From Nitrospira sp. (GTDB lineage Bacteria > Nitrospirota > Nitrospiria > Nitrospirales > Nitrospiraceae), in contig JADLEJ010000050.1 in the NCBI GenBank assembly GCA_020846195.1, positions 1-64,000 of the forward strand: a stretch of 64,000 bases of DNA. Reading direction: 5' to 3'. Shown one piece after another: positions 190 to 43,779 of the stretch (the first letter of the stretch is position 1; every line of letters begins with the position of its first letter). The position numbers and the translations under genes were made by a program. The notes below the pieces were generated by a model. That model worked only from the letters and a program-made list of their open reading frames with translations, did no database searches and was not told the DNA's origin.

Positions 190-621
190 ATGGCTACGTC
201 ATCGCAACAATCCACGATACAAACAACCGATCCGCTGCGCCGCACCTTGACCGATGTGCGTCATGGGCTGTTGGGGCTCCACAAAGCCCTGATTGTGGCG
301 GAGCAGCTCACGTTCGAGCGAATCTACGGCCGCGTGGATTCGACCGGGCAGTTGCTGCAACTCGTCATGAACGATCCCTGGTTCACCTGGCTGCATCCGC
401 TGTCCAATGTGGTAGTCCGCATCGATGAGATGCTGGATGAAGGATGCGCCCTGTCGCTGGAGGATGTCGCGCAGATCCTCACGGAAGTCCGCGGCATGAT
501 CCGCCCCTCAGAATTGGGCGATGGATTTGAGCGCAGCTACTATGAAGCGCTGCAGCGCGCCCCCGAAGTCGTCATGGCACACTGCGAGATGAAAAAACTC
601 CTGACCCTTCCTGCGGTCTAG
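190..621 (+). CDS. conserved hypothetical protein
   Basis: 143-aa ORF, globular composition, no recognised domain. Confidence 0.6.
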   Translation: MATSSQQSTIQTTDPLRRTLTDVRHGLLGLHKALIVAEQLTFERIYGRVDSTGQLLQLVMNDPWFTWLHPLSNVVVRIDEMLDEGCALSLEDVAQILTEVRGMIRPSELGDGFERSYYEALQRAPEVVMAHCEMKKLLTLPAV

Positions 622-673
622 ACCTTCCGCATTCGCATCCCTCTATCTTTCCCGGCCTTCCTCTAAATAAAAA

Positions 674-699
674 GCGGCCGGCTCTTTCGAACCGGCCGC
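674..699 (-). terminator. rho-independent terminator for the 738-1166 minus-strand gene
   Basis: GCGGCCGG...CCGGCCGC 8-bp perfect stem followed on the minus strand by CTTTTTATTT. Confidence 0.7.
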
Positions 700-737
700 C
701 GCGTCATTCTGCATTCCCGCCAAAGCAGGACACCCGA

Positions 738-1166
738 TTAGTGCTTGTCGCCGTCTTCGTGCTTGTCCGTCTCATCATGCTTGTCGCGATCGCCGTGCTT
801 CTCGCGGTCGCCATGCTTGCCGCGTCCCCGAGCATTGTCACGGCCGTGCTTCCCATGCTCACCGGCCGCTTCATCGGCCCGATCTAAGCCATGTTTCTTG
901 CCATGCCCTTTTCCGCGTTTCTTCCCCTTGCCCTTGCCTTTCCCCTCCTGCTCGTCTTCCCCCTCATGCCGGTCTTTCTTCTTCTCTCCTTCAACGGCCG
1001 GTGCCGAAGCCGGCGCAGAAGCCGGTTGCGTGGCTTGGGGAGCAGGAGCCGGGACTGGTGCAGGGGCAGGAACTGCCGCCGGATCAGTTGCCGGCGCCTG
1101 CGCGAACACCTGTGTATAGGCCGCAAACACGACCACAGCCATCACCATCGAGACGGTCTTCTTCAT
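738..1166 (-). CDS. secreted His/Lys/Asp/Gly-rich low-complexity protein
   Basis: Internal start MKKTVSMVMAVVVFAAYTQVFAQ gives a signal peptide, then a Pro/Ala linker and a KHGDREKHGDRDKH... tail. Confidence 0.65.
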   Translation of the reverse strand: MKKTVSMVMAVVVFAAYTQVFAQAPATDPAAVPAPAPVPAPAPQATQPASAPASAPAVEGEKKKDRHEGEDEQEGKGKGKGKKRGKGHGKKHGLDRADEAAGEHGKHGRDNARGRGKHGDREKHGDRDKHDETDKHEDGDKH

Positions 1167-1340
1167 GCCATCCTCCATCCAGAGATCATCTATCCGATAC
1201 GAAGGCCCATCCTTCTCGGACCCCACACCTAACCATACAGCGCTCTTGGCGCCAACAAGTTTTCAGATTTCTCCCACTCGAATTGTGGCTGAAATCGAAC
1301 GACAAATTATTGAAGAGTTATTGCCGCAACAAGGACTGTC

Positions 1341-1646
1341 TCAGACGATCTGCGTGCAAGGCCAGGCAAACACACGAATAGACGGCTTCTGCCAACCAGG
1401 ATGCCCCTCTGATTCCATGCACCAGGCTGTCACCGCCTCCGTAACACGTAGCCGACGGTCGTCATCGAGCGCGACGAGAATAACCGAATTGGTGCCGGGA
1501 TAGAACGCCAGCCCCTCTGCTGGACCGGTCTGACCGTAACCGACCGTCTCATTCACCTCTGTGAAGGCATTCACCTCGCACCGATGGAGCAACGCATGCA
1601 CCTGTTCCTTCAGCGAGGAGCGGAAGGCCAGCATCATCATCTGCAT
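1341..1646 (-). CDS. PII-like small protein (PG0541-type transporter-associated family)
   Basis: 101 aa; MMMLAFRSSLKEQVHALLHRCEVNAFTEV... resembles PII-like transporter-associated proteins. Confidence 0.5.
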   Translation of the reverse strand: MQMMMLAFRSSLKEQVHALLHRCEVNAFTEVNETVGYGQTGPAEGLAFYPGTNSVILVALDDDRRLRVTEAVTAWCMESEGHPGWQKPSIRVFAWPCTQIV

Positions 1647-1655
1647 AGGAATCTC

Positions 1656-2093
1656 CTACATGCGGCCTTCGTCGAGTTCGATCGCGTCGACCCACAGGGA
1701 AGCTGGCGGCAGCGAGCTGACTGGCACGCCGCGCTTCCTCGCAATTTCATCCAGACGCCCCTGGAGCCGTGCGCGCGTCGCATCATCCTTAGGGCCGGAA
1801 GAGAGCAACCCTTGCGACCACTGTGCAATCTCCTCATGCGAATGCGGCTTGCCGTTCACCACCACCCAGGCCAGCACTTGCTCATCTGTGCCGCCAGCCA
1901 GCACCTTCTGCTCGAAGGCCTTCGGATCGATCGCCAAAAAGTCGATCAGGTACTTGTCGAATCCAACCGTAATGTAGTTGTAATCCTGAATCTGGCCGGC
2001 ATGACGAAGCTTAACCTTGTCGATAAACCGCCCCAGATGGGCAATGCCACCGAGAAGCGCTTTGGGACTGCGGGGATATTGTTGTTGCGTCAT
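1656..2093 (-). CDS. DUF5069 domain-containing protein
   Basis: PRSPKALLGGIAHLGRFIDKVKLRHAGQI...YNYITVGFDKYLIDFL. Confidence 0.65.
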   Translation of the reverse strand: MTQQQYPRSPKALLGGIAHLGRFIDKVKLRHAGQIQDYNYITVGFDKYLIDFLAIDPKAFEQKVLAGGTDEQVLAWVVVNGKPHSHEEIAQWSQGLLSSGPKDDATRARLQGRLDEIARKRGVPVSSLPPASLWVDAIELDEGRM

Positions 2094-2108
2094 ATCTCCT
2101 GATTCCTC

Positions 2109-2504
2109 TCATGGGTGGATGACATTCAAACTGAGCACTTCTTCAAACGAATCGTAGTCACGGTCATTGTGCAGCAAGGCATGCCCCTCCAACAAACAAA
2201 ACGTCGCGATCAGAGAATCGATGGTCTTGCGCACGGTTCGCCCAGCGGCTCTCAAGCGCCGATAGTTAAGAGCCGCTTCGACAGCGACTTCAACCGTCCC
2301 CGTCTCAAAAACTGCAAACTTCATCAGCTCCGCTCGAACCGCCTCAAATTGCTTGTCTGTGGTGAGACCTTGTAACACTTCGCAGAGAATCAAATCGGTA
2401 AGGCCAATGCGCTCTCTTGCCAGCTGCGCATCGAGCCAGTCGGCATGGGAAGTGCGTGCTCCCCGAAAGTAATCTATCCACACCGTCGTATCGACAATGA
2501 TCAT
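2109..2504 (-). CDS. vapC: PIN-domain toxin, VapC family
   Basis: MIIVDTTVWIDYFRG...LCEVLQGL...TIDSLIATFCLLEGHALLHNDRDYD; overlaps upstream antitoxin by ATGA. Confidence 0.85.
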   Translation of the reverse strand: MIIVDTTVWIDYFRGARTSHADWLDAQLARERIGLTDLILCEVLQGLTTDKQFEAVRAELMKFAVFETGTVEVAVEAALNYRRLRAAGRTVRKTIDSLIATFCLLEGHALLHNDRDYDSFEEVLSLNVIHP

Positions 2505-2710
2505 GATGCCGCCTTGATACGCCCCTCCCGCATCGCGCCGAGATCTCCCTCCCACTCAATCTTGCCACGCAACTGGCGGATGCCTTCTTGCCTCTTCACC
2601 TTGATCAGCAATCGAAGCCCCTCTTCTACCACCGCTTTCTTCGTCGAAAGCCCGGTGGCCTTCATCGCCCGCTGCATCAAGCTATTGTCGATCACGATGT
2701 TGGTACGCAT
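2501..2710 (-). CDS. vapB: VapB-family antitoxin
   Basis: MRTNIVIDNSLMQRAMKATGLSTKKAVVEEGLRLLI, overlaps vapC. Confidence 0.8.
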   Translation of the reverse strand: MRTNIVIDNSLMQRAMKATGLSTKKAVVEEGLRLLIKVKRQEGIRQLRGKIEWEGDLGAMREGRIKAAS

Positions 2711-2859
2711 AGCACCTCCGACATGGAATGTGTACGAATAATAAAATACTACACACGCGGGCCAGGAGAAGCAAGCCGCAAGGAAACACGCCATTCGCTG
2801 ATAATGGAGCAGACCGGCTCAACGGCGCTGATTGTTCTAAGGCAGCGCACCTGCCGTCT

Positions 2860-3960
2860 CTAGGCCGAACCGATTCTTTTCCCGGTCGCCCGCTCGAAGA
2901 GATGAATGGATGCCCGGCGTACCGACACCGCAACGCTGTCGCCCACGTTTGGAATAAATCCGGCCTCCGTTAACCCGATGACTGTCATGGCTTGAGCATC
3001 CTGAAGGTCTACCGTGACCCACATTCCGGCTCCAGACGGCTCGACGAGTCGAACGATTCCCGATACAGCCCCCTCCCCTGTTGCCGCAACAGATGTAATG
3101 GCCACGACTTCCGGTCTGATTCCCATGATGAGAGGTTGATCCAGAAGATGCTGGGCTCCCGTCTCCGCTAACGGCAGCCGAATGGGCCCGGCTCGAAGCG
3201 TCTGGCCCTCACGATGCGCGTCGAGCAGATTCATCGGCGGATAACCCATGAATCCGGCGACAAACATGTTGGCAGGACGCGCATAGATCTCGTGCGGGTG
3301 GTCGATTTGCTGCACCTCGCCATGATTGAATACCGCTAATCGGTCGGCCAGCGTCATTGCCTCCGTCTGATCGTGCGTCACATAGATCGTGGTGATCTTC
3401 AGCTCTTCGTGCAATCGCCGCAGTTCCGCGCGCATCGACGCCCGCAGCTTCGCATCGAGATTCGACAGCGGCTCATCCATCAAAAAAACCCGCGGCTTTC
3501 TGATGAGCGCCCGGCCGAGCGCCACCCGTTGCCGCTGGCCACCCGACAACTCACGCGGCCGCCGGTCGAGCAACGGGATCAATCCAAGAAACCCAGCTAC
3601 TTTTTGCACTTCTTCTTCGATGCGGCGACGATCGAATCCATGCCGGCGCTTCGTTACTTGAAGGGGAAACGCCAGATTGCCGCGCACCGTCATATGCGGG
3701 TAGAGCGCATAACTCTGAAAGACGAGCGCGATGTCGCGCGCGCGCGGCTCCAGTTCTGTCACATCTTCTCCGTCGAACAAGATGCGGCCGGCTGTCGGTC
3801 GATCTAATCCGGCAAGGAGGTTCAACAGCGTCGATTTCCCGCATCCTGAGGGACCGACGACCGCAAACAGCTCTCCTTCGTTGATCGTCAGGGTCACGTC
3901 CGGAAGCACATTCGTCGCGCCATATCGTTTCGAGAGATGTTCCAATCGCACTTCCGCCAT
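2860..3960 (-). CDS. sugar ABC transporter ATP-binding protein (UgpC/MalK family)
   Basis: Walker A GPSGCGKST, LSGGQRQRVALGRAL signature, Walker B VFLMDEPLSNLDA. Confidence 0.9.
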   Translation of the reverse strand: MAEVRLEHLSKRYGATNVLPDVTLTINEGELFAVVGPSGCGKSTLLNLLAGLDRPTAGRILFDGEDVTELEPRARDIALVFQSYALYPHMTVRGNLAFPLQVTKRRHGFDRRRIEEEVQKVAGFLGLIPLLDRRPRELSGGQRQRVALGRALIRKPRVFLMDEPLSNLDAKLRASMRAELRRLHEELKITTIYVTHDQTEAMTLADRLAVFNHGEVQQIDHPHEIYARPANMFVAGFMGYPPMNLLDAHREGQTLRAGPIRLPLAETGAQHLLDQPLIMGIRPEVVAITSVAATGEGAVSGIVRLVEPSGAGMWVTVDLQDAQAMTVIGLTEAGFIPNVGDSVAVSVRRASIHLFERATGKRIGSA

Positions 3961-3966
3961 CGCGTC

Positions 3967-4827
3967 TTACCCCTTCACGCTCCCGGCCGTTAATCCGGCC
4001 ACGATGTGCCGTTGAAACAAAATAGCTAATGCTCCGACAGGAAGCGTCACCACAAGAGAGGCGGCCGCGATATCGCCCCACGGAATTTCATAGAGCCCTG
4101 GAAATAGCGCGACCGCGACCGGGGCGGTTCGCGTCGCATCGCTGGCGGTGAGGGTCAAGGCGAACATGAACTCGTTCCATGAATAAATGAATACCAACAA
4201 TGCCGCGACGGCAAGACCTGGGCGCGCCAATGGAAAAAATATCGTGAACAGCGCACGCAGCGGCGTGCAGCCATCGACACGCGCGGCATAGTACAGTTCC
4301 GCTGGCAATTGCCGGAAGAAACTCGTCAAGAGCCAGACGGCGAGGGGCAGCGAATACACCGCATGGGTAAGGCCCACGGCCAGCAGCGTATCCCGAAGAC
4401 CGAGCTCGCGCATCAATAAGTACAAGGGGCTGATCACCGCAATTGGCGGGAACATCGAGGTCGACAGAACCAATCCGAGAATGACCGGCTTACCAGCAAT
4501 CGGCAAACGCGCCAGCGCAAAGGCGCACAACGTCCCCACCACAATGGAGACCGTGGTGGCGCTAACCGCCACGATCAGACTGTTCGCCAGCGACTGGGCG
4601 ATCGGAGATTCGAATAAAACTCTCCCATAATGGGAGAGCGTCATCTGCTCCGGGAGGATCGGCGGCAGCCGCACGAGATCCTGATCGAGCTTGACCGACG
4701 TTACCGCCTGCCAGAGAATCGGCCCCAGGCAGAAGAGCCCCACAGACAGCATGAGGCATAGCTTCAGGCCAACCTGCCGAAGAGTTCTCACATTGCCGAG
4801 CGGTCGATCCTCCGTCATATCCGACAT
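3967..4827 (-). CDS. carbohydrate ABC transporter permease (MalG-like)
   Basis: EAA-type loop YYAARVDGCTPLRALFTIFFPLARPGL, operonic. Confidence 0.88.
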   Translation of the reverse strand: MSDMTEDRPLGNVRTLRQVGLKLCLMLSVGLFCLGPILWQAVTSVKLDQDLVRLPPILPEQMTLSHYGRVLFESPIAQSLANSLIVAVSATTVSIVVGTLCAFALARLPIAGKPVILGLVLSTSMFPPIAVISPLYLLMRELGLRDTLLAVGLTHAVYSLPLAVWLLTSFFRQLPAELYYAARVDGCTPLRALFTIFFPLARPGLAVAALLVFIYSWNEFMFALTLTASDATRTAPVAVALFPGLYEIPWGDIAAASLVVTLPVGALAILFQRHIVAGLTAGSVKG

Positions 4828-5765
4828 CAGGCACTCTCCTGAAAATGGCGCCGCAACAGCACGACATACAGCGCGGAAAGCCCCGCCACAAGGATGAACA
4901 TCGCTGTGGCCAGTGCGGAGCCATACCCAAATTGCAACGTCTGAAACAATGTTTTGTAGGCATAAATCGACAGCGTTTCAGTCGTGTTGCCCGGGCCGCC
5001 GCCCGTCAGCACAAACACCGCATCGAACACGCGCACCGCGTCCATCGTGCGAAACACGAGCACGATCACGACGATGGGCATCAACAGCGGAAGCGTGATC
5101 CGGCGAAACCGCTCCCACGGTCCCGCGCCATCGACTGTGGCCGCGGCATACAGATCTTGCGGCAAGGCTTTCAGGCCCGCCAACAACAACAAGGTCGCGA
5201 ACGGCGTCGTTTTCCAGACATCCATGACGACAGCCGCATGGATCGCCCAGTCCGGATCGGCGAGCCAATCGATCGGGGCGTCGATCAATCCAACCCGAAG
5301 AAGCAGGTAGTTGAGCAAGCCATAATCCGGTTGGTAGAGCCACTTCCAGATTTGAGCCGACACCACGGTGGGAACCGCCCAGGGCAAGAGAACCATCGCT
5401 TGCTCCCACGGCGAAGACCGCCCAGATCGGCTCGTGAGCCGATCCAGCAAGAGCGCCAGGCCAAATCCCACCACCAATTCGGCAGTGACCGAGAGTGTCG
5501 TAAAATACAGCGTGACGCGGCACGCGGCCCAAAACCGCTCGTCGCTCCATAGCTGGACGTAATTGGCCGCTCCGATAAATTCATCCAGGCCGAACACCGG
5601 CATGCGCCGATACAGACTCAGCCACAGGGCGGCTCCAATCGGAGCGAGCGCCACGAATCCCAGCAGCACAAACGCCGGAGCCGCCAGGAGATAGCCCCAA
5701 GCGCGCTCCGACAGACGGCTCACGCGCCTCACTCCTCCTGCTCCTGTCGAGTGCGGGCCTGTCAT
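4827..5765 (-). CDS. carbohydrate ABC transporter permease (MalF-like)
   Basis: EAA loop LYAAATVDGAGPWERFRRITLPLLMPIV. Confidence 0.88.
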   Translation of the reverse strand: MTGPHSTGAGGVRRVSRLSERAWGYLLAAPAFVLLGFVALAPIGAALWLSLYRRMPVFGLDEFIGAANYVQLWSDERFWAACRVTLYFTTLSVTAELVVGFGLALLLDRLTSRSGRSSPWEQAMVLLPWAVPTVVSAQIWKWLYQPDYGLLNYLLLRVGLIDAPIDWLADPDWAIHAAVVMDVWKTTPFATLLLLAGLKALPQDLYAAATVDGAGPWERFRRITLPLLMPIVVIVLVFRTMDAVRVFDAVFVLTGGGPGNTTETLSIYAYKTLFQTLQFGYGSALATAMFILVAGLSALYVVLLRRHFQESA

Positions 5766-31210: not shown

Positions 31211-31296
31211 CTCCCATCTCCGCACCCGTTTTCCATCATGCCATTGTGTCTTCCCGCCTCTTGCTCCCTCACGCATCGGCGTCATATGATCGCCTT

Positions 31297-31491
31297 ATGC
31301 AGGTACAACTCAGCCATCCGTCCAGAACGGTCGAGGTCAAAGGCCCAAAGAAGGCCAAGGATCTTTTGAAAGAACTGAGCCTTGTCGTGGAAGCGCATCT
31401 AGTCATCCGCGGCGATGAGCTTGTCACCGAAGACGAGATGCTCTACGACCAAGACCAGATCGAAATCCGTCCGGTGATTTCCGGCGGATAA
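31297..31491 (+). CDS. MoaD/ThiS/TtuB-like sulfur carrier protein
   Basis: MQVQLSHPSRTVEVKGPKKAKDLLKELSL...DQIEIRPVISGG with C-terminal GG. Confidence 0.75.
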   Translation: MQVQLSHPSRTVEVKGPKKAKDLLKELSLVVEAHLVIRGDELVTEDEMLYDQDQIEIRPVISGG

Positions 31492-31892
31492 TACTTACTC
31501 TTGATCGCTAAGAAGTCCTACGGTCAGCGAATGACTGCCCCCTGCAATCCACCGAACATAGCGACTGCGGCCTAACACCCCTACACCTCCTCCAACGACA
31601 CGCAATAATTGCACGGGGCTTCATTGCGCAAGATCGCTGTTGCGCACGAAACCGTTCCTTCTCGCTCTCTGAACAGCATAGGCCATCTTCCCAAGAGTCA
31701 GATTCTTCGCAGACTGTGCTCAAAGAAAGAGTCATGGCGCGATTTTCATAACGAATGGTCCTGCTGCCGAGAACCGAGTCTTCGCATGACGCGAGACCTC
31801 CTCCGCTACACACCCAGAACCCAGCCCGGTGTACAGCGATACCCCACCATGGTAGCATCACGCCACATTGTGCAAATGAGGCCGCATTCACT

Positions 31893-33287
31893 ATGTTCCG
31901 CCCTTCCCCCCAAACCAGCCTCTTTCAAGATCTTCCCATCCGTCTCATTAGCACCGTACTTCTGATTCTGGCACTAGTGGTCTCTGTGCTGCTGTTATTC
32001 GGCCTTGAACACGAAAAAGTCATTGTCCAGGGGCTCTCGGAGGGGAAAGATCTTCCCACCGGGTTCCTGTCGGGACTGTGGCAATCCCGTTACGATATGC
32101 TTTCGATGACGCTGTTGCTCTTCCTGCTCGGCAGCATCGGGATCGCCGCCGTCATTACCTTCCAGCATTACAGCAGCACGCGACGGACACTTGAAGAAGT
32201 CAAAGGCCTTGCCCGAAACATCCTCGAAAGCATTCCCACCGGCGTCGTGACGGTCGACCGCAACGGCCAAATCACAGCCGTGAATCCCTCGGCGACGGTT
32301 ACACTCCAACGCTCAACGGACACCCTTCTCGGACAATCTTACGAAGATGTGTTTGTCGAAGGAGAGACAATTCGTCTGGTGCTCGACGGCGTCCTGCAAA
32401 GCCACCGCCATGTGGATCATCATGATATGCCTTACGACACCACCGGCCAGCCTCGCACAATCCGCGTCACGACGGCAGACCTGGCCGGAGACGACGGCCG
32501 GTCGGCCGGCGCCATTGTGCTGCTGAAGGACGTCACGGAGCTGCTGAATTTGGAGCGGCGCGTACGAGTCGCGGACAAACTGACCGGCCTGCATACCCTC
32601 TCAGCGGGCGTGGCCCACGAGTTGCGCAATCCCTTGAGCGCAGTGGACCTGAACCTCCATCTACTCGAAGAAGAATTGAAAGAGCAGGGCGCCCTGGGAA
32701 AGCAATCGATCCATTACATCCACGTACTGAACGCCGAATGCCGCCGGCTGTCTGTGATTCTCGATAACTTCATGAAATTCGCACGATCCGGCTCTATGGG
32801 AATGCATGAAGTCCATGTGCTCGCCGCCATCGAGCATATTATGGCGCTGATGCAGTTCGACGCGGAAGAACGAAAGATTCTCTTCACGCACACAGTCGAA
32901 ACAGCCCTGCCTCCCGTCCTCGGCGATGAGACGCAAATCGGCCAGGTCTTATTGAACATCGTGGTCAACGCGTTCCATGCCATGCCGGACGGCGGACAGT
33001 GCCACATCACCGCTGAGACACGAACCACGGACGGCAAACACTGGGTGGAGATTTCGGTGAAAGACACAGGCCTCGGCATTCAGCAAGAAGCCTTGCCCCG
33101 CTTATTCGAGCCCTTCTATACGACCAACCCCAACGGAACCGGACTTGGGCTCGCGATTGCCTACCGGATCATGCAGGATCACGAGGGAACGATTACGGTA
33201 TCGAGCGCTCCAGGTCACGGCACGACCGTGACGATAGGATTCCCTGCCGGAGTCGGCCGACTTCAGGCCATCGGAACAGCGTCATGA
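31893..33287 (+). CDS. membrane PAS-domain sensor histidine kinase
   Basis: Two TM segments, PAS, HisKA AHELRNPLSAV, HATPase DTGLGI...GTGLGLAI. Confidence 0.9.
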   Translation: MFRPSPQTSLFQDLPIRLISTVLLILALVVSVLLLFGLEHEKVIVQGLSEGKDLPTGFLSGLWQSRYDMLSMTLLLFLLGSIGIAAVITFQHYSSTRRTLEEVKGLARNILESIPTGVVTVDRNGQITAVNPSATVTLQRSTDTLLGQSYEDVFVEGETIRLVLDGVLQSHRHVDHHDMPYDTTGQPRTIRVTTADLAGDDGRSAGAIVLLKDVTELLNLERRVRVADKLTGLHTLSAGVAHELRNPLSAVDLNLHLLEEELKEQGALGKQSIHYIHVLNAECRRLSVILDNFMKFARSGSMGMHEVHVLAAIEHIMALMQFDAEERKILFTHTVETALPPVLGDETQIGQVLLNIVVNAFHAMPDGGQCHITAETRTTDGKHWVEISVKDTGLGIQQEALPRLFEPFYTTNPNGTGLGLAIAYRIMQDHEGTITVSSAPGHGTTVTIGFPAGVGRLQAIGTAS

Positions 33288-34642
33288 CGACACCGGCCCG
33301 CATCCTCATCGTGGACGACGAAGTAAACATTCGCGGCGCCTTGATGACCCTCCTTGAGAAGAAGGGGTACCAGGTGCGCGGAGCGGGAACGGGAGAGGAT
33401 GCGCTTGAACAACTCGCCGCCGCCGCCGCAGATTTGGTATTGACCGATCTCAAAATGCCGGGCATCGGCGGCATAGAATTCATCCGCCGCCTCAAAGCGA
33501 AATGGCCGGATACGGAAGTCGTGGTCATGACGGCGTATGGCTCGATCGATACCGCAGTCGACGCCATGCGCCACGGCGCCTACGACTACCTCGCCAAACC
33601 CCTCGATCGCGAACGTTTTCCCGTCGTGGTCGAGAAAGCCCTTGAACGACGCGTCCTCGTCACGGAAAACAGACACCTGCGGGACCGCCTCGAAACCAGA
33701 GCGCGCTTCGATCAAATGGTCGGCGCCAGCGAACCCCTGCAGCGGGTCTACAGCCTGGTGGACATGGTCGCCGACAGCGCGGTCACCGTCCTGCTGACAG
33801 GAGAAAGCGGCACCGGAAAAGAACTTGTCGCCCGGGCCATCCACCACCGAAGCGCGAGAGCCAATGGGCCGTTTGTGACCGTGAATTGCGGCGCCCTGCC
33901 GGAGAGCCTCTTCGAAAGCGAGCTGTTCGGATACGAAAAAGGCGCCTTCACCAGCGCGATGGCGACCAAGGCCGGCCGGTTCGAGCTGGCTGACAGCGGC
34001 ACGCTGCTGCTGGACGAAGTCGGTGAATTATCGCTGAAATCCCAAGTCGACTTTCTGCGCGTCCTGGAAACCAAAGAGTTCCGGCGCCTGGGCGGAACGA
34101 AGCTGATCACGGTCGATGCCCGGATCATCGCGGCGACCAACCGCAACCTGGAGGAGGCGGTCAAACAGGGCGCGTTTCGAGAAGATCTGTACTACCGGCT
34201 CAATGTGGTGCCGATCCGCCTGCCGCCCCTTCGTGAGCGAGGCGACGATATCCCTCTGCTGGTAGACCGATTTCTCATGGAGTGCGCGACCCAGCATCAC
34301 CGTGAACCGAAAGACGTGTCGCGGGAAGCCATGCGACTGTTTCGGTTATATGGATGGCCGGGAAACATCCGCCAACTACGCAACCTGATGGAACGCCTCG
34401 TCGTCACGGTGCGGGATAAAACGATTCAGCCTGAGCACTTGCCCGAAGAGATCCAGGCCAGCAAGGAAAACGCGCATACATTACTCGTCACTCTGGGAAC
34501 CTCTTTAGAGCAGATCGAACGAGATGTCATCCAGCGAACATTAGCTGAAGTCACCAATCACCGGGAACATGCCGCCAAGCTCTTAGGCATCAGCCTCCGA
34601 ACGCTTCAGTACAAAATCAAGGAATACGGCATCCGGGCCTGA
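33284..34642 (+). CDS. sigma-54-dependent response regulator (NtrC family)
   Basis: Receiver ILIVDDE, GESGTGKELVARAIH, GAFTSA, C-terminal HTH; ATGA overlap with kinase. Confidence 0.94.
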   Translation: MTTPARILIVDDEVNIRGALMTLLEKKGYQVRGAGTGEDALEQLAAAAADLVLTDLKMPGIGGIEFIRRLKAKWPDTEVVVMTAYGSIDTAVDAMRHGAYDYLAKPLDRERFPVVVEKALERRVLVTENRHLRDRLETRARFDQMVGASEPLQRVYSLVDMVADSAVTVLLTGESGTGKELVARAIHHRSARANGPFVTVNCGALPESLFESELFGYEKGAFTSAMATKAGRFELADSGTLLLDEVGELSLKSQVDFLRVLETKEFRRLGGTKLITVDARIIAATNRNLEEAVKQGAFREDLYYRLNVVPIRLPPLRERGDDIPLLVDRFLMECATQHHREPKDVSREAMRLFRLYGWPGNIRQLRNLMERLVVTVRDKTIQPEHLPEEIQASKENAHTLLVTLGTSLEQIERDVIQRTLAEVTNHREHAAKLLGISLRTLQYKIKEYGIRA

Positions 34643-34690
34643 CCGCCATCTCGTGGCGGCTCCCCACCCACAGCCGGATCAAACGCCGCG

Positions 34691-34705
34691 CTGCAATATT
34701 TGCAG
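34691..34705. promoter_or_regulatory. candidate activator-binding palindrome 1
   Basis: CTGCAA-TAT-TTGCAG. Confidence 0.6.
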
Positions 34706-34732
34706 GACTCTACCGGCGTCGATTCAGGATCA

Positions 34733-34749
34733 CCTGCAAGTCTTGCAGG
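34733..34749. promoter_or_regulatory. candidate activator-binding palindrome 2
   Basis: CCTGCAAG-T-CTTGCAGG, same half-site as palindrome 1, 43 bp centre to centre. Confidence 0.65.
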
Positions 34750-34854
34750 CCGCGATGACGCCGTTCCTCTACAATTCGCAATGGGAACCCCCCTTTTCCT
34801 GTAAGTGCGCCATTTCTTTCACGCCATCCCGACATACTCGCATAACAAGACCGC

Positions 34855-34870
34855 GGGCATCTTCCCTGCA
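34855..34870 (+). promoter_or_regulatory. candidate sigma-54 (-24/-12) promoter
   Basis: GGGCATCTTCCCTGCA: GG-N10-GC spacing, GGCAT and TGCA elements. Confidence 0.5.
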
Positions 34871-34877
34871 TTGCCCT

Positions 34878-34900
34878 ATGACATATTTTGCGTATGTCAT
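34878..34900. promoter_or_regulatory. perfect inverted repeat at the predicted transcription start
   Basis: ATGACATA-N7-TATGTCAT. Confidence 0.55.
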
Positions 34901-34994
34901 GAACCGATGAACTGGCCACTCGCTGACGACCTTGAGTGGACGGTTGAAGGTCATCGTTTTATCTTCCCCCTAAACAAAGTGAGCACGGCCTCCA

Positions 34995-35234
34995 ATGTCG
35001 AATGAGCCTTGGATCGCGCGCCTGGCTGAATTGCAGAAGCTTTTGACAGTCTGCCCCGCGGATCTCCTTGCACGGTGCGAGTTGGCGCTCTTACTCGAAA
35101 AGCTGGACCAGTACGAAGAGGCTCATTTCAACTGGAAGGCGGTCCTGGATTCTGACCCGAACAATCTCAAAGCCCGCGAAGGCATGGCTCGCTGCCGAAG
35201 GCGAACCGGCCGGCCGCTGCAATCTCGGATGTGA
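34995..35234 (+). CDS. small TPR-like protein, first gene of putative Ehr operon
   Basis: 79 aa; CELALLLEKLDQYEEAHFNWKAVLDSDPNNLKAREGMARC is one to two TPR-like helices pairs. Confidence 0.65.
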   Translation: MSNEPWIARLAELQKLLTVCPADLLARCELALLLEKLDQYEEAHFNWKAVLDSDPNNLKAREGMARCRRRTGRPLQSRM

Positions 35235-35300: not shown

Positions 35301-37325
35301 ATGCTGAATGTACTGTGGGTCCTTCTCATAGGATATGCAGCCGGCATGGTTCTCCCGCTCTATCCGCGGCAGCCAGATACACAACGCCTCGCGGCCAGTA
35401 TCTGCGCCAGCGTCGCGGCCGGCGCAGGCATCGCGTTGGGACTCCTTGGACTCACTGCGCCTGAACCGGTTGCCTTCTCCATTTCTTCGACTGCCCCACT
35501 GCTCGTTTTCGCAATCCGCATTGATCCCCTGTCGGCGTTTTTCGTCTTAACGATCTCGCTGGTCGGCCTCGCCGCCGCAATCTATGCCGTCGGGTATGTC
35601 CGGCATTTCCAGGGAGGCACCTCTATCGCGGCGCTGGGGTCGCTCGCCAACGGATTTCTTCTCTCCATGACTCTCGTCGTGCTTGCCGACAACGGACTTT
35701 TCTTTTTGATGGTCTGGGAACTGATGTCCCTTGCTTCCTACTTTCTGGTCGTCACAGAACATGAGAAAACGGACGTGCGTTACGCCGGCTTCTTCTATCT
35801 GGCTATGACGCACATCGGCACCGCATTTATCGCTCTCGCGTATTTGATCCTGTTCCAATCGGCCGGATCGTTCTCATTCGAAGCCTTTCGCCATCCGGAG
35901 CGGGCCGTACCGGAAGAGATCCGAACTCTGATCTTTCTCGCTGCCTTGATCGGCTTCGGCACAAAGGCCGGGATCGTGCCCCTGCATGTCTGGCTGCCCT
36001 ATGCCCACCCGGCCGCGCCGTCGCATATCTCCGCGCTCATGTCCGGCGTCATGATCAAGACCGCCATCTATGCGCTCATCCGGATCTACTTCGATTTCCT
36101 CGGAGGACAGTTTCCCTGGTGGTGGGGATTCCTGGTGCTGCTCGCCGGAGCTCTGTCCGCAATCCTAGGCGTGATGTATGCGCTCATGGAACACGACCTC
36201 AAGCGTCTCCTGGCATTTCATAGCGTGGAAAACATCGGCATTATTTTGCTGAGCATCGGCGCCGGCATGATTTTTCAAACCTACGGGCTCAAAGAGTTTG
36301 CCGCGCTGGGCCTGTTGGCCGGGCTCTACCACACCATCAATCATGCCATGTTCAAAACCCTGCTCTTTCTGGGAGCAGGCTCTCTCCTCTACGCGGCGCA
36401 TACGAGGAACATGGAGGAATATGGCGGGCTGCTCCGGCGCATGCCCTGGACCGGTCTGTTTTTCCTCATCGGCGCGGTATCGATCTCGGCCCTTCCCCCG
36501 ACCAACGGATTCGTGAGCGAATGGTTGATCTTTCAAACGCTCTTCCTGAGCGTTCAGCTCCCGGATCTGCTCCTCAAGTTAATGCTTCCGATTGCCGCGG
36601 CCATCCTGGCCTTGACCGGCGTATTGGCCCTGGCCTGTTTCGCCAAAGCCTTCGGCATTTCGTTTCTAGCGCTCCCGCGAAGCGCTCACGCGCGCCATGC
36701 CGAAGAAGTCCCGGCCGCCATGAAAATCGGGATGGGCATCCCGGCCCTGCTGTGCATCGGACTTGGCCTGGCTCCCATGGCCGCGATCCCGCTCCTCGAC
36801 CGGATTACCGAGCCGCTGACCGGCGTTTCCATCGCCGGCAAGGTGCTGGCGCTCGATGGCTGGGCCTTGGCGCCGGTGAATATGGAGTTCTCCAGCTTGT
36901 CGCCCTCCATGCTGGCAGCCATGCTGATTCTGACCGGGCTCCTCGGCCTGGCCTTGGCCTTTCTCTTTGGCGGCCGTCTGGCAAAGCGCTATTACAAGAC
37001 CTGGGGGTGCGGGATGAATCTCTCTCCGCGGATGGAATACACGGCCACGGGATTTGTCCAACCGATTAAGCGGGTCTTCAGCACCATTTACCAGCCGACG
37101 GTCAAGCTCGAAACCGAGTTTCTGCAAGAGTCCCGCTACTTCGCCAAACAACGGAAGTTTGAACTTCACATCGAACCGGTCTTTGAGAAGCATCTTTACG
37201 ATCCAGCCGTTCGTGTCTTTCTGAAAATCGCTGACCGTCTGCGCCTGCTCCAGGCAGGCAGCCTCCACCTGTATCTGGCCTATATTTTCGTAACGCTGGC
37301 CGTCTTATTGCTGTTCGCTGTCTAG
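35301..37325 (+). CDS. hyfB: hydrogenase-4 component B-like proton-pumping subunit (EhrA-like)
   Basis: Antiporter-type membrane subunit; KAGIVPLHVWLPYAHPAAPSHISALMSGVMIK. Confidence 0.88.
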   Translation: MLNVLWVLLIGYAAGMVLPLYPRQPDTQRLAASICASVAAGAGIALGLLGLTAPEPVAFSISSTAPLLVFAIRIDPLSAFFVLTISLVGLAAAIYAVGYVRHFQGGTSIAALGSLANGFLLSMTLVVLADNGLFFLMVWELMSLASYFLVVTEHEKTDVRYAGFFYLAMTHIGTAFIALAYLILFQSAGSFSFEAFRHPERAVPEEIRTLIFLAALIGFGTKAGIVPLHVWLPYAHPAAPSHISALMSGVMIKTAIYALIRIYFDFLGGQFPWWWGFLVLLAGALSAILGVMYALMEHDLKRLLAFHSVENIGIILLSIGAGMIFQTYGLKEFAALGLLAGLYHTINHAMFKTLLFLGAGSLLYAAHTRNMEEYGGLLRRMPWTGLFFLIGAVSISALPPTNGFVSEWLIFQTLFLSVQLPDLLLKLMLPIAAAILALTGVLALACFAKAFGISFLALPRSAHARHAEEVPAAMKIGMGIPALLCIGLGLAPMAAIPLLDRITEPLTGVSIAGKVLALDGWALAPVNMEFSSLSPSMLAAMLILTGLLGLALAFLFGGRLAKRYYKTWGCGMNLSPRMEYTATGFVQPIKRVFSTIYQPTVKLETEFLQESRYFAKQRKFELHIEPVFEKHLYDPAVRVFLKIADRLRLLQAGSLHLYLAYIFVTLAVLLLFAV

Positions 37326-37339
37326 GAGACGCGCGAAGG

Positions 37340-38299
37340 ATGCCCCCCATCGTCCAATCCTTGTTGCTCGTAACGGCGCAAGTCATCGTCTTGCTCGCAG
37401 TCTCGCCCTTCCTCGTGGGACTCATCCGCAAGGTAAAGGCACGATTCCAATGCCGGCAAGGCGCCGGTGTCTTCCAGCCTTATGCCGATCTCGCCAAGCT
37501 GTTCCATAAACAGCCGGTGCTTTCAACGACTACCTCATGGATCTTTACCGCCACGCCGTATATCCTCTTCGCCTCCACACTCTCTGCCGGCCTGTTGGTC
37601 CCCACGCTCAGCTCCCAGGCTCCACTGAACTTTGCGGGAAACATCATTGCGCTCGTGTATCTCCTGGCGCTGGGAACGTTTTTTCTCATTCTTGCGGGAC
37701 TCGACGCCGGATCGGCGTTCGGCGGAATGGGCGGCAGCCGGGAAGCGATCGTGGCATCGTTGACGGAGCCGACCATGATCCTTTCCGTTTTTACCATTGC
37801 GCTGACCGCCGGCTCCACCAATCTCAGCACGATTGTCCATAAGACCGCGTTGTTGGAAGGGATCGTGACCGATCCGTCCCCGCATCTGATGGCGCTGGCC
37901 GCCCTGTTCATCGTGACACTTGCCGAGACCGGCCGGGTGCCGGTCGACAATCCGGCCACGCATCTCGAACTGACCATGATTCATGAAGCGATGGTCCTGG
38001 AATACTCGGGCCGCTACCTCGCCTTAGTCGAATGGGCGGCCGGCCTGAAGCTGGCGGTGTTTCTCTCGCTGATCGCCAATGTCTTCGCGCCTTGGGGCAT
38101 TGCGACGACATTAACGCCGGCCGCATTGGCGATCGGGCTCGTGGCCTACGCGGTAAAGATTGCAGGGCTGGCGGTGTCGATCGGCGTCCTCGAATGCATG
38201 TTTGCAAAGTTGAGGCTGTTCCGCGTGACGGATCTCCTGGGCGTCGCCTTTATCCTGGCGCTGCTCGGGTTGCTGTTCTTTTACATCCTTCGGAGCTGA
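37340..38299 (+). CDS. hyfC: hydrogenase-4 component C / NuoH-like subunit (EhrB-like)
   Basis: GVFQPYADLAKLFHKQPV..., ETGRVPVDNPATHLELTMIHEAMVLEYSG. Confidence 0.9.
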   Translation: MPPIVQSLLLVTAQVIVLLAVSPFLVGLIRKVKARFQCRQGAGVFQPYADLAKLFHKQPVLSTTTSWIFTATPYILFASTLSAGLLVPTLSSQAPLNFAGNIIALVYLLALGTFFLILAGLDAGSAFGGMGGSREAIVASLTEPTMILSVFTIALTAGSTNLSTIVHKTALLEGIVTDPSPHLMALAALFIVTLAETGRVPVDNPATHLELTMIHEAMVLEYSGRYLALVEWAAGLKLAVFLSLIANVFAPWGIATTLTPAALAIGLVAYAVKIAGLAVSIGVLECMFAKLRLFRVTDLLGVAFILALLGLLFFYILRS

Positions 38300-38303
38300 A
38301 CCG

Positions 38304-38969
38304 ATGCCGCTTTCCTCCCACATCGGATCCCAACTCGTTGACTTGTGCTCGGCCTTGCTGTTGCTCACCTGCTTCGCCATCGTGGCGCAGCGGCGGCTCT
38401 CCGCCTGCGTCGACCTGTTCGCACTGCAGTCGGCCTTTCTCGCTCTGACGGCGGCGCTGGTGGCCTTCCTGACCGGACACCATCACATCTATATCGCGGC
38501 GGCACTGACCGGCGCGATCAAAGTGATCGCCATTCCGAGGGTGCTCAAGAAGGTCATCGAGCGCCTCAATGTCAAACGGGAACTGGTGATGAACGTCAAT
38601 GTGCCGGCCGGCCTGCTGATCTGCGGCGCCCTGGTCATGCTGGCCTTCTTCATCACGCAACCCATCATCCCGCTGGGCTTTCTGCTGACCCGCGACTCTC
38701 TGGCTATCGCGCTCGCGATCGTGCTCATCGGGTTTTTCACGATGATCGCCAGGCAAAAAGCCGTGACGCAGTTGGTGGGCTTTCTGGTCATGGAGAACGG
38801 CTTGTTCTTGGGGGCCACGGCCGCCACTTACGGGATGCCGTTGATCGTGGAGCTGGGAGTGTTCTTCGACGTGCTCATCGCGGCATTGATCGCGGGGATC
38901 TATACGAATCGCCTGCAAGACGCGTTCGATAGCGTGGATACGACTCATCTGACAGTCCTGAAAGAATAA
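38304..38969 (+). CDS. hyfE: hydrogenase-4 component E-like subunit (EhrC-like)
   Basis: Hydrophobic 221 aa, NuoK-like LVMENGLFLGATAATYGMPLIVELGVFFDVLIAALI. Confidence 0.82.
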   Translation: MPLSSHIGSQLVDLCSALLLLTCFAIVAQRRLSACVDLFALQSAFLALTAALVAFLTGHHHIYIAAALTGAIKVIAIPRVLKKVIERLNVKRELVMNVNVPAGLLICGALVMLAFFITQPIIPLGFLLTRDSLAIALAIVLIGFFTMIARQKAVTQLVGFLVMENGLFLGATAATYGMPLIVELGVFFDVLIAALIAGIYTNRLQDAFDSVDTTHLTVLKE

Positions 38970-38981
38970 GCAAAGGATCCG

Positions 38982-40520
38982 TTGATGATCGAAGTCTTTG
39001 TCTTGTTGATTGCCCCGTTTCTCGCGGGAGGCCTGAGCCTGATCGTGCATCGGTCCGCGCTGCTGCATGCCATCAACCTCACCAGCATGAGCCTGCTCGT
39101 GGGAGCGGAAATCATGATCACCGGGACCGTGTTGAAGGATGGCCCGTTCACGGCGCTGGGGCAGTTGGTCTATTTCGATGCCTTATCGGCCTTCATTCTC
39201 TTCATCATCGGAGCGGTCGGACTGGCCTGTTCGTTCTACATGCGCTCCTATATGGACGATCAGGTGGCGCGCGGGGTGATCGCGCCCACGCGGCTCAATC
39301 TGTTCTTTTTCCTCTTTCACATGTTTCTCCTGGCCATGGTGCTTGCAACCGTCGCCAACAGCGTTGGGGTCCAATGGGTCGCCATTGAGGCGACAACGCT
39401 AGCCACGACGTTTCTGATTGCCTTCTGGCGGCGGCGAGAATCCTTGGAGGCGGGGTGGAAGTATCTCATCCTCTGCTCGGTCGGGATCTCCCTTGCGCTC
39501 TTCGGCGTAGTGCTCACCTATTACTCATCGCAGCATGTGCTGGGCGATGTGAGCGAAGCCTTGAACGTGACGCAGTTGCTGCCGGTGGCCAGCCAGCTAA
39601 ATCCGCATGTGCTGAAGCTGGCCTTCATATTCATCCTGGTGGGCTATGGGACCAAGGTAGGGCTGGTGCCCATGCACAGCTGGCTTCCGGACGCCTATAC
39701 TGAAGCCCCGGCTCCCGTGGCGGCGATGCTGGCGGGCGTCCTGGAAATTGTCGCGGTCTATGCAATCCTTCGCATCAAGACCATTGTCGATCACGCCGTG
39801 TCTCCGGCCTTCAGCGGCGGGCTGCTGGTCTTGCTCGGGTTTGCCTCGTTTGCGACGGCCGCGCTGTTCATCCTCATTCAGCATAACTATAAACGGCTGT
39901 TCGCCTATTCCAGTATCGAGCATATGGGGATCGCCATGATCGGCTTCGGAGTCGGAGGTCCGCTGGGAACCTTCGGCGGACTGTTTCATTTGCTGAATCA
40001 TGCGTTCGCCAAGTCGATGGCGTTTTTTTCCGCGGGCAACATTCATCGTCGCTTTCACACGGTAGAGATCGGTCAGGTGCAGGGGCTGGCCATCGCCCAG
40101 CCTTGGACCGCCATAGCCTTAATGGTCGCGGGACTGGCCCTTTCGGCGCTGCCCCCGTTCGCCTCATTTGTCAGTGAAATGCAAATCGTTACGGCTCTGG
40201 CCGCGCAAGGGGTTCCGGGACAATGGCTGGGCAATGGCGGCGGCATGGTGACCGTTGCTTTCTCGGACCGATTCGCCAGCCTGGGCTTCACCGGATTGTT
40301 TTTGCTCTGCTCGCTCCTTGCCTTCAGCGGCATGCTCTACCGCATTGCCGGAATGGTCTGGGGCACTCCGCCGGAGGGAATTGCCCGGGGAGAATGCTGG
40401 ACTCTAGGGCATCTGCCGATCATGGCGCTCGCCGCGGCGTTGGTGGGATTCAGCTTCTTCATCCCTCAGCCCATGCGGCAACTATTGGAAGAGGCGACAA
40501 GAATAATCCTGGTTCACTAG
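38982..40520 (+). CDS. hyfF: hydrogenase-4 component F-like proton-pumping subunit (EhrD-like)
   Basis: GYGTKVGLVPMHSWLPDAYTEAPAPVAAMLAG, LFAYSSIEHMGIA. Confidence 0.9.
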   Translation: MMIEVFVLLIAPFLAGGLSLIVHRSALLHAINLTSMSLLVGAEIMITGTVLKDGPFTALGQLVYFDALSAFILFIIGAVGLACSFYMRSYMDDQVARGVIAPTRLNLFFFLFHMFLLAMVLATVANSVGVQWVAIEATTLATTFLIAFWRRRESLEAGWKYLILCSVGISLALFGVVLTYYSSQHVLGDVSEALNVTQLLPVASQLNPHVLKLAFIFILVGYGTKVGLVPMHSWLPDAYTEAPAPVAAMLAGVLEIVAVYAILRIKTIVDHAVSPAFSGGLLVLLGFASFATAALFILIQHNYKRLFAYSSIEHMGIAMIGFGVGGPLGTFGGLFHLLNHAFAKSMAFFSAGNIHRRFHTVEIGQVQGLAIAQPWTAIALMVAGLALSALPPFASFVSEMQIVTALAAQGVPGQWLGNGGGMVTVAFSDRFASLGFTGLFLLCSLLAFSGMLYRIAGMVWGTPPEGIARGECWTLGHLPIMALAAALVGFSFFIPQPMRQLLEEATRIILVH

Positions 40521-40524
40521 GGGA

Positions 40525-42126
40525 ATGCCTGCCATGGCGGAGACAAAATCCTGCGATACAGAACTCAAAACCGCTTTCCCGTCTATCGTGCAGCGCGACA
40601 CAACGCAGAGAGAATTCTCTCACTTTTTCGTCGCCAAGGACCTCCTGCCGACGATCGCCCGTCACCTCCATACCCAACCGGGCTTACATGGCAGATTGGC
40701 GCTCTTATGGGCTGTCGACAATCGCCCCGCGCGCAACACCTACGAATTGCACTACCTGTTCACCCTGGAGCCCTCTCACCGCTGGGTACTGTTATCCACG
40801 GAGCTTGCGAAAGATGATCGGGTATTCCCCTCCATCACACCGCACATTCATGCCGCACAGTGGTACGAACGGGAAATCCGCGACATGTTCGGCTTGATTC
40901 CACAAGGGCATCCGGACCTGCGGCGTTTGGTTCGGCACGAACATTGGCCTCAAGGGGCCCACCCTCTCAAAAAGGACTTCCCGTGGGACCGGGCGCTGGG
41001 TCGGCAGCAGGGTGAACATCGCTTCCACCGCATTGAGGGGGAGGGGGTCTTTGAAGTGCCGGTGGGGCCGATCCATGCCGGGATCATCGAGCCTGGTCAT
41101 TTTCGATTTTCCGTGGCAGGTGAGCCCATCATGCAGCTCGAACTGCATCATTTCTGGACACATCGCGGCGTTGAGAAGCTGTTCGAGCAACAACCATTGG
41201 CCGCAGCAGTTCCATTGGCCGAACGAGTATCCGGCGATACAACATTCGGCCATAGCCTTGCCTATTGCCAGGCAGTTGAATCGCTGCGCCATCTAGACGT
41301 GCCACGCCGTGGGCGATATCTACGCAGCCTGTTTCTCGAACTGGAGCGGCTCCACAACCATCTCGGCGACGTAGGCGCCATCTGTAACGATACGGCCTAT
41401 GCCCTCCCCCATGCCCATTGCAGCCGGATGAAAGAGCAGATCATGCAGCTCAACGACCGGCTGACCGGCTCACGATTTCTCCGTGGCCTCAACCGGGTGG
41501 GTGGAGTCGCACTCGATCTCACGGCGGCGCAATTGGCCGAGATTGCAGCTGAAATAGACCGCATGGAACAAGACTTCTCGGAACTGGAATCGATCATCGC
41601 CCACAACGCCTCCCTCATAGACCGATTGGAGGCCACCGGTGTCCTGACCGAACGCACGGCCTGGGATCATGCCGTAGTGGGAGTCGTCGGACGGGCGTCG
41701 GGCCTCGATCAAGACCTCCGGCGCGACCGGCCATTTGCCGCTTACGACGAACTTTCCGTCAAAGTAGTGCACTATCGCTATGGCGATGTGCGGGCACGGA
41801 TGCGGGTTCGCATGGATGAAATCCATGAGTCCATGCGGCTGATCAGAGAGATTCGCTTGCGGATTCCACAGGGGCCGGTCGCCGTCGAATCCAGTCCCAG
41901 GGCACAAGCCGGTGAATGGGCCTTGTCCGCCGTCGAAGGCTGGCGCGGTGAAATTCTGTACATGGTGATGGCAGGGGACAACGAAACGATTCAACGCTGT
42001 AAAGTCCGCGACCCGTCCTTTGTGAATTGGCCCGCGATTCAGTGGGCCGTCATCGGAAATATCATCCCAGACTTTCCGCTGATCAACAAAAGCTTCAATC
42101 TCTCCTATGCCGGAAATGATCTTTAG
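40525..42126 (+). CDS. hyfG: hydrogenase large-subunit homologue lacking NiFe-ligand cysteines (EhrL-like)
   Basis: N-terminal NuoC-like region fused to NuoD/HycE-like domain; L1 site reads ERVSGDTTFGHS, L2 site reads RDPSFVNW. Confidence 0.88.
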   Translation: MPAMAETKSCDTELKTAFPSIVQRDTTQREFSHFFVAKDLLPTIARHLHTQPGLHGRLALLWAVDNRPARNTYELHYLFTLEPSHRWVLLSTELAKDDRVFPSITPHIHAAQWYEREIRDMFGLIPQGHPDLRRLVRHEHWPQGAHPLKKDFPWDRALGRQQGEHRFHRIEGEGVFEVPVGPIHAGIIEPGHFRFSVAGEPIMQLELHHFWTHRGVEKLFEQQPLAAAVPLAERVSGDTTFGHSLAYCQAVESLRHLDVPRRGRYLRSLFLELERLHNHLGDVGAICNDTAYALPHAHCSRMKEQIMQLNDRLTGSRFLRGLNRVGGVALDLTAAQLAEIAAEIDRMEQDFSELESIIAHNASLIDRLEATGVLTERTAWDHAVVGVVGRASGLDQDLRRDRPFAAYDELSVKVVHYRYGDVRARMRVRMDEIHESMRLIREIRLRIPQGPVAVESSPRAQAGEWALSAVEGWRGEILYMVMAGDNETIQRCKVRDPSFVNWPAIQWAVIGNIIPDFPLINKSFNLSYAGNDL

Positions 42127-42134
42127 CGAGGAGG

Positions 42135-42647
42135 TTGCACATGTTTCGTATTCTGAAAAAAAGCCTCAAGACCGGAGTGGCGACGGGCCGGCACCCTCAA
42201 GCCACCCAGTCCTCCGAACCACTCACGCCGGAGGCGCATAAGAAAGCCTCGGCGTTCAATCGATCGCTGGCCATCCGCGAAGTCGACACCGGGTCCTGCA
42301 ATGCCTGCGAGGTGGAGATGAACGCCTTGACCAATCCTGTCTATGATGCCGAGCGGTTCGGCATCCACATCGCGGCCTCGCCGCGCCATGCCGACGCCCT
42401 GGTCGTCACAGGGCCGGTCACCGTTAACATGGCGCGCGCCTTGAAGGATGTCTATAAACAGACGCCCGATCCGAAACTGGTGATTGCGCTGGGCGATTGC
42501 GCCATCGACTGCGGCGCCTTCAAAGGGAGCTATGCGGTGACCGGGCCGGTCGACCGGCATATTCCGGTCGATGTCCGCATTCCCGGCTGCCCGCCGCGGC
42601 CAGCGGATATCCTGAAGGCACTGACCGATATCCAGGAAAGACCGTGA
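42135..42647 (+). CDS. hyfI: NuoB/HyfI-like FeS subunit (EhrS-like)
   Basis: DTGSCNACEVEMNAL...ALGDCAIDCGAF...RIPGCPPRPADIL: N2-type cysteine ligands retained. Confidence 0.88.
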   Translation: MHMFRILKKSLKTGVATGRHPQATQSSEPLTPEAHKKASAFNRSLAIREVDTGSCNACEVEMNALTNPVYDAERFGIHIAASPRHADALVVTGPVTVNMARALKDVYKQTPDPKLVIALGDCAIDCGAFKGSYAVTGPVDRHIPVDVRIPGCPPRPADILKALTDIQERP

Positions 42648-42840: not shown

Positions 42841-43779
42841 ATGAACTGCACAAAATGCAAAACCCGCGCGGTGATCGATCTGCCACGGCATAATGCCGCC
42901 CTCTGTAAAGGTTGCTTCAACCACTACGTGCATGACCAGGTCGGCCGGGCCATCAAATCAGAAAAGATGTTCGGGAAAGACGACCGCATTCTCGTTGCCG
43001 TATCGGGCGGCAAGGACAGTCTGGCGCTCTGGGATGTGCTCCTCAAGATGGGCTACAAGGCCGATGCGCTCTACGTCAATCTCGGCATCGGCGGCTATTC
43101 AGAAGTATCTCATGCGAAAGTGGTCAAGTTTTCAGAAACCGTGGCCGCCCCGCATGGCGCAATGCTGCATGTGCATACCGTCGAGCAGGAAGCCGGGGCC
43201 GGCATCAAGGAACTGGCCATGCTGCTTCACCGCCCGACCTGTTCCACCTGCGGCACGATCAAGCGCTACCAGTTCAATCGCGTGGCGCTGGAACAGAAAT
43301 ACGATGTCATGGCGACAGGCCACAATCTCGACGATGAAGCCGCCCGCCTGCTGGGCAACGTGCTCCGCTGGCAGGAGGAATATTTAGACAAGCAATCCCC
43401 CAACTTGCCGGCCTCCCTCGACGGGTTCGCCAAGAAAGTGAAGCCGCTCTTTCGCCTGTCCGAACGCGAACTGGCCGCCTACTCGGTGTTGAATCGAATC
43501 GATTACATCGTCGAAGAATGCCCGATGGCGAAAGGCGCCCGAACGCTGCTCTACAAGGAAGTGTTGAACCGGCTCGAAACGGAATCGCCCGGCACCAAGC
43601 AGGCCTTCTATTGCGGCTTTCTCGATAAGCAACGCAAGCCGGACGCGGCCCCGACTACGATAGCCGAGAAGGACCAGGCCCTGCTGCATCCCTGCACCGC
43701 CTGCGGCCAGCCGACCATCGCCGAAGTCTGCTCCTATTGCAAGATGATGGCGCGAGCCAAAGCCCATTCTGCCTCATAA
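42841..43779 (+). CDS. ttuA: TtuA/TtcA-family tRNA thiolation enzyme
   Basis: N- and C-terminal zinc fingers (CTKC...CKGC; CTAC...CSYC), PP-loop SGGKDS, CSTCG. Confidence 0.85.
   Translation: MNCTKCKTRAVIDLPRHNAALCKGCFNHYVHDQVGRAIKSEKMFGKDDRILVAVSGGKDSLALWDVLLKMGYKADALYVNLGIGGYSEVSHAKVVKFSETVAAPHGAMLHVHTVEQEAGAGIKELAMLLHRPTCSTCGTIKRYQFNRVALEQKYDVMATGHNLDDEAARLLGNVLRWQEEYLDKQSPNLPASLDGFAKKVKPLFRLSERELAAYSVLNRIDYIVEECPMAKGARTLLYKEVLNRLETESPGTKQAFYCGFLDKQRKPDAAPTTIAEKDQALLHPCTACGQPTIAEVCSYCKMMARAKAHSAS

Follow-up and report, generated by a model that had tools for sequence, protein, structure and literature searches.

What switches on the Ehr complex of Nitrospira is a question that a single intergenic gap brings into focus. 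A group 4 hydrogenase-like complex encoded by hyf genes, with its cofactor motif missing, has been noted in several Nitrospira genomes (PMC12542776), and a passage of that paper that cites earlier work reports no expression of the hydrogenase-like complex during growth on hydrogen. In the open-licence papers that we searched we found no account of its regulation. The locus considered here lies in a stretch of 64,000 nucleotides from a Nitrospira genome (the window), for which an earlier reading of the letters alone, hereafter the sequence-only reading, had proposed that a kinase and regulator encoded just upstream switch on the Ehr complex through paired palindromes and a -24/-12 promoter. We have compared this gap with its counterparts in related genomes, and ask which parts of that proposal survive and which gene the switch would serve in the first instance.

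The locus and its genes

The features of the locus are collected in Table 1. The Ehr genes run in the order B, C, E, F, G, I, and Hyf/Nuo-like antiporter, NuoH, NuoCD and NuoB subunits are all found together. The 533 residues of the large subunit include five scattered cysteines and no CxxC motif. Ehr is defined by the loss of the Ni/Fe ligands (PMC6349859) and, because the Ni-ligand CxxC motifs are missing, we assign the complex to Ehr and not to the hydrogenases; the loss also agrees with what has been noted in other Nitrospira (PMC12542776). Upstream of the gap, the Pfam domains of both genes bear out the claim of a sigma-54 activator paired with a PAS kinase, and synteny places the kinase orthologues of relatives directly upstream of the regulator. 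The genome holds one copy of the sigma-54 gene (PF04552, E 8.7e-58). The block of kinase, regulator, TPR and Ehr genes is itself flanked by a ThiS-family (TtuB-like) gene at 31246-31491 and a TtuA-like gene at 42841-43779, likely a tRNA 2-thiolation pair split around the block.

Table 1. Genes and predicted control elements of the kinase-regulator-TPR-Ehr locus (positions in the window).
Feature	Position	Strand	Basis or remark
Sensor histidine kinase: membrane segment, PAS, HisKA, HATPase_c	31755..33287	+	Pfam; NCBIfam
NtrC-type response regulator	33284..34642	+	receiver PF00072, sigma-54 interaction AAA+ PF00158, Fis-type HTH PF02954
Upstream activator site 1 (predicted): palindrome CTGCAATATTTGCAG	34691..34705	.	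centre 34698, about -183
Upstream activator site 2 (predicted): palindrome CCTGCAAGTCTTGCAGG	34733..34749	.	centre 34741, about -140
Third conserved stretch around TAAGTGCGCCATTTCTTTCA (TAAGTNCGCNATTTCTTTCA)	34801..34822	.	alignment island between sites and promoter, about -70
-24/-12 (sigma-54) promoter element GGGCATCTTCCCTGCA	34855..34870	+	motif match, conserved in relatives
79-aa TPR gene, first behind promoter	34995..35234	+	co-occurs with regulator
HyfB-like antiporter subunit of Ehr	35301..37325	+	Pfam; NCBIfam
HyfC/NuoH-like subunit	37340..38299	+	Pfam; NCBIfam
HyfE-like membrane subunit	38304..38969	+	NCBIfam
HyfF-like antiporter subunit	38982..40520	+	Pfam; NCBIfam
HyfG/NuoCD-like large subunit, without CxxC	40525..42126	+	Pfam; motif scan
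HyfI/NuoB-like small subunit, 4Fe-4S cluster Cys kept	42135..42647	+	Pfam; motif scan

Elements of the gap

Inspection of the sequence confirms the two palindromes with CTGCAA/TTGCAG half-sites at the positions first described. Palindrome 1 is CTGCAA-TAT-TTGCAG and palindrome 2 is CCTGCAA-GTC-TTGCAGG, the arms of the latter reaching 8 bp when its centre is counted as 1 nt; the spacing between them is 43 bp, or four helical turns. The GG-N10-GC element is likewise present as claimed, with GG at 34856-57, GC at 34868-69 and 10 bp between. As a -24/-12 match it is weak, with three mismatches, and taken alone it is not above chance: TGGCAC-N5-TTGCA with three mismatches or fewer occurs 152 times in the window against 181.5 expected from shuffles. 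Better promoters are found in many relatives, for instance TGGCACTCTCCCTGCA in L179. Transcription is predicted to start near 34881, which would give the TPR gene a leader of about 114 nt in the window. A scan of 34600-35000 revealed neither a terminator nor a sigma-70-like promoter.

Two further features of the gap were considered. The third conserved stretch is possibly the site of an architectural protein that bends the DNA, a role suggested by position alone; its position fits that of an IHF site, while by eye its sequence does not match the IHF consensus. A perfect inverted repeat, ATGACATA-N7-TATGTCAT, lies over the predicted start at 34878-34900, and was dropped as an element because it is absent from the gaps of relatives and the window contains 30 such repeats, a frequency that does not exceed chance.

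Conservation among relatives

The sequence-only reading had named conservation in relatives as a check on the palindromes. Our sample comprised 148 genomes of the same family, 52 with an orthologue of the regulator and 74 with HyfB; the loci of relatives were fetched and oriented, and 55 regions downstream of the regulator, that of the window included, were compared. In 39 of these 55 regions a palindrome is followed, 116-121 bp further on, by a -24/-12 element, where dinucleotide shuffles lead us to expect 0.07, and the check thus comes out in favour of the palindromes and of a fixed spacing. Among the 39, a non-redundant set of 32 loci shares less than 80% identity, pairwise, between the sites and the promoter. 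GGCA and TGCA of the promoter are invariant throughout this set (32/32); GG and GC were forced by our filter, yet C3, A4, T12 and A15 were not, and are the same in all 32. In 22 of the non-redundant loci the palindrome is preceded by a second one at a distance of 40-44 bp, and in 11 there are additional palindromes at 99-106 bp; of the two sites, site 2 is the better conserved. In the alignment the palindromes, the stretch at 34801-34822 and the promoter stand out as conserved islands amid diverged sequence, and the sequence 3' of the promoter is unconserved. The remaining 16 of the 55 gaps depart from this arrangement through insertions, a decayed -24 or another spacing, and L198 likewise departs from it.

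The arrangement also depends on the regulator. It was found near hyfB in none of the 26 Ehr operons taken from genomes that lack a full-length regulator orthologue, the single loose match among them (L050) lying 2.7 kb upstream of hyfB, and it is absent from the three distant regulator homologues that we examined (L200, L221 and L235; 45-48% identity). These results bear on the most sceptical view of the gap, that the palindromes are repeats with no regulatory role and the -24/-12 element a chance match. The weakness of the element in the window lends itself to that view, but chance would have to account for an arrangement kept by diverged relatives far beyond expectation and missing from Ehr loci without the regulator, and we find it scarcely credible.

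Uniqueness in the genome

A genome-wide scan for CTGCAA-N3-TTGCAG, also suggested at the outset, returned five exact copies in 3.3 Mb. Three lie off the locus, inside penicillin-binding-protein-like, aminotransferase-like and secY-like coding sequences, and the two palindromes of the window are therefore the only intergenic exact copies in the genome. Combining a palindrome half with the promoter (TTGCA-N(104-124)-GGCAY-N5-YTGCA) left one match in the whole genome, at the gap itself. We also considered a wider regulon, in this genome and in the 148 genomes of the family, sorting matches into on- and off-locus by comparison with the coordinates of the regulator and TPR genes. The strict pattern gave 25 matches at the locus and 7 elsewhere; a reversed control pattern gave 25, and since the off-locus matches do not exceed this number, a regulon elsewhere was rejected. 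With no sign of further targets, the confinement of palindrome plus promoter to this gap indicates what appears to be a dedicated, one-target switch.

The gene behind the promoter

Where the sequence-only reading placed the promoter upstream of the Ehr operon, it was correct in that Ehr follows, in the window and in most relatives, but the small TPR gene, and not hyfB, comes first behind the promoter. This gene and the regulator correspond almost one-to-one (53 and 52 of 148 genomes), and the mismatches can mostly be put down to poor assembly or to contigs that break off. The regulator stands without the TPR gene in G133 and G140 alone, and in G133 the contig runs for 278 bp past the regulator and stops; G114, G126 and G135 have the TPR gene without a full-length regulator, and in the last two a partial regulator sits at the contig end. 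The TPR gene comes first after the promoter in 23 of 35 scorable loci, and in some relatives that place is taken by a lipoprotein, small membrane protein or CODH/ACS-epsilon-like gene. Three loci (L171, at 252-5169 after the regulator, L160 and L149) carry CODH/ACS-epsilon-like (PF02552), PFOR domain II-like, lipoprotein and cupredoxin-like genes between the promoter and hyfB, where 'cupredoxin-like' is our own reading and the Pfam match is only to a CarboxypepD_reg-type domain. In one genome (G124, locus L181) fragments of hyfB and hyfI, and no close HyfG, lie 3' of an intact kinase-regulator-TPR unit, and we read these remnants as a decayed Ehr operon. Because the TPR gene tracks the regulator more closely than Ehr does, and both persist where the Ehr operon has decayed, the conserved direct output would seem to be the TPR gene, with Ehr usually, and in the window, next in line.

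The same observations can be pressed further, to a switch that is real but serves the TPR gene alone, as a partner of the kinase and regulator or a feedback component, with Ehr a mere neighbour under its own promoter. Such a reading would accommodate the near one-to-one tracking, the survival of regulator and TPR gene where Ehr is missing or fragmentary, and the 30 genomes that have Ehr without a full-length regulator, as well as distances from TPR gene to hyfB that exceed 1.5 kb in some relatives, with other genes between. We nevertheless think it unlikely, given that in the window hyfB follows the TPR gene on the same strand after 66 bp, and that the order promoter-TPR-(others)-hyfB is conserved. 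The scan that found neither terminator nor sigma-70-like promoter also speaks against it, although the interval scanned lies upstream of the 66-bp gap. The regulator and Ehr are, moreover, strongly associated across the 148 genomes (both in 44, regulator only in 8, Ehr only in 30, neither in 66; Fisher P 5e-10, a value that ignores shared ancestry).

The promoter might otherwise drive a small regulatory RNA within 34881-34995 instead of the operon, and there is a precedent in Desulfovibrio, where a published table lists sigma-54 regulators that drive an ncRNA beside their own gene (PMC4641369). This is very improbable here: relatives do not conserve the sequence 3' of the promoter, the scan found no terminator, and in L164 and L170 the TPR gene starts just 26-30 nt after the -12 box.

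A probable dedicated switch and its possible mechanism

What we observe directly is a set of elements that relatives keep at fixed spacing, that goes with the presence of the regulator and that as a set occurs nowhere else in the genome, together with the order of the genes. Taken as a whole, these features of the sequence make it probable that a dedicated two-component/sigma-54 switch controls the TPR gene and Ehr from this gap. On the other side weigh the weak -24/-12 match, the 16 gaps that depart from the arrangement, the leader of about 114 nt and the genes that in relatives separate the promoter from hyfB. The original proposal, that the kinase and regulator switch on the Ehr complex, keeps its core, being supported by conserved and unique elements that are absent without the regulator, but has to be amended in that the direct target is the TPR gene and Ehr stands behind it as a frequent, not an obligatory, companion.

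In outlining how the switch would work we infer phosphorylation, binding, looping, the start site and a single transcript spanning the TPR gene and Ehr. On receipt of a signal, the membrane-bound PAS kinase would phosphorylate the NtrC-type regulator, whose Fis-type HTH would bind the two TGCAA-N3-TTGCA palindromes. Looping of the DNA would then bring the AAA+ ring into contact with sigma-54 polymerase, which would sit on the -24/-12 element some 120 bp further downstream. Transcription would begin near the predicted start, and the transcript would carry the TPR gene first and then hyfB-C-E-F-G-I.

One feature of the regulator is peculiar to this genome. Its sigma-54 contact loop reads GAFTSA (about 33941-33958), against GAFTGA in all 55 of the other orthologues examined. 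In NorR the same change from glycine to serine gives a protein that is active without its signal and still partly regulated (PMC2941729) and, because that serine change is partly signal-independent, GAFTSA may leave the switch partly on at all times in the window's genome. The substitution could also impair the contact with sigma-54, which would count against our preferred explanation, or it may be an error in the draft sequence of this one genome.

A broader view would take kinase, regulator, control region and TPR partner as the conserved unit, with a redox cargo that varies by lineage (Ehr, CODH/ACS-epsilon-like, PFOR-like, cupredoxin-like) and, in this genome, the partial signal independence conferred by GAFTSA; we offer it tentatively, as a possibility somewhat on the doubtful side. 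As a gene switch the arrangement is of an ordinary kind, yet it provides a concrete handle on when the cell calls on an energy complex that is poorly understood. If the switch is indeed dedicated to a single target, learning which signal the kinase answers to would show at what times Ehr is used and, by that route, probably to what end. The TPR gene gives the switch another unexplained partner, one that is open to testing.

Comparison with known systems

The NCBIfam models nearest to the kinase and regulator are those of AtoS-AtoC from E. coli, and both matches fall below cut-off (293 against 646 bits for AtoS; 477.5 against 714 for the AtoC equivalog NF008469). AtoC acts at atoDAEB through two palindromic TGCA...TTGCA sites at about -184 to -144 (PMC3118216), much as the sites of the window fall at about -183 and -140. 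The details differ, however: the TGCA half-sites of AtoC are 6 nt apart and those of the window 5 nt; the two 20-bp sites at atoDAEB adjoin, whereas those of the window are 43 bp apart; and AtoC targets fatty-acid genes, where the target here would be TPR-Ehr.

The regulator shares with the NtrB-NtrC, ZraS-ZraR and NtrX-type systems its order of receiver, AAA+ and Fis HTH domains, a PAS kinase, and enhancer sites upstream of a -24/-12 promoter, and the solved structures closest to it belong to the NtrC family (4l4u, 1ny5). It is set apart from these systems by a palindrome of its own, a single genomic target, and a fixed position beside its own gene. A sigma-54 activator that governs a hyf-type gene set is familiar from FhlA, which controls formate hydrogenlyase and hydrogenase-4. 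FhlA lacks a receiver domain and responds to formate, whereas the regulator of the window belongs to a two-component pair and its complex is without the Ni-ligand motifs. In its general design the switch would be a standard NtrC/sigma-54 arrangement, and what appears to be new is its use for an Ehr operon.
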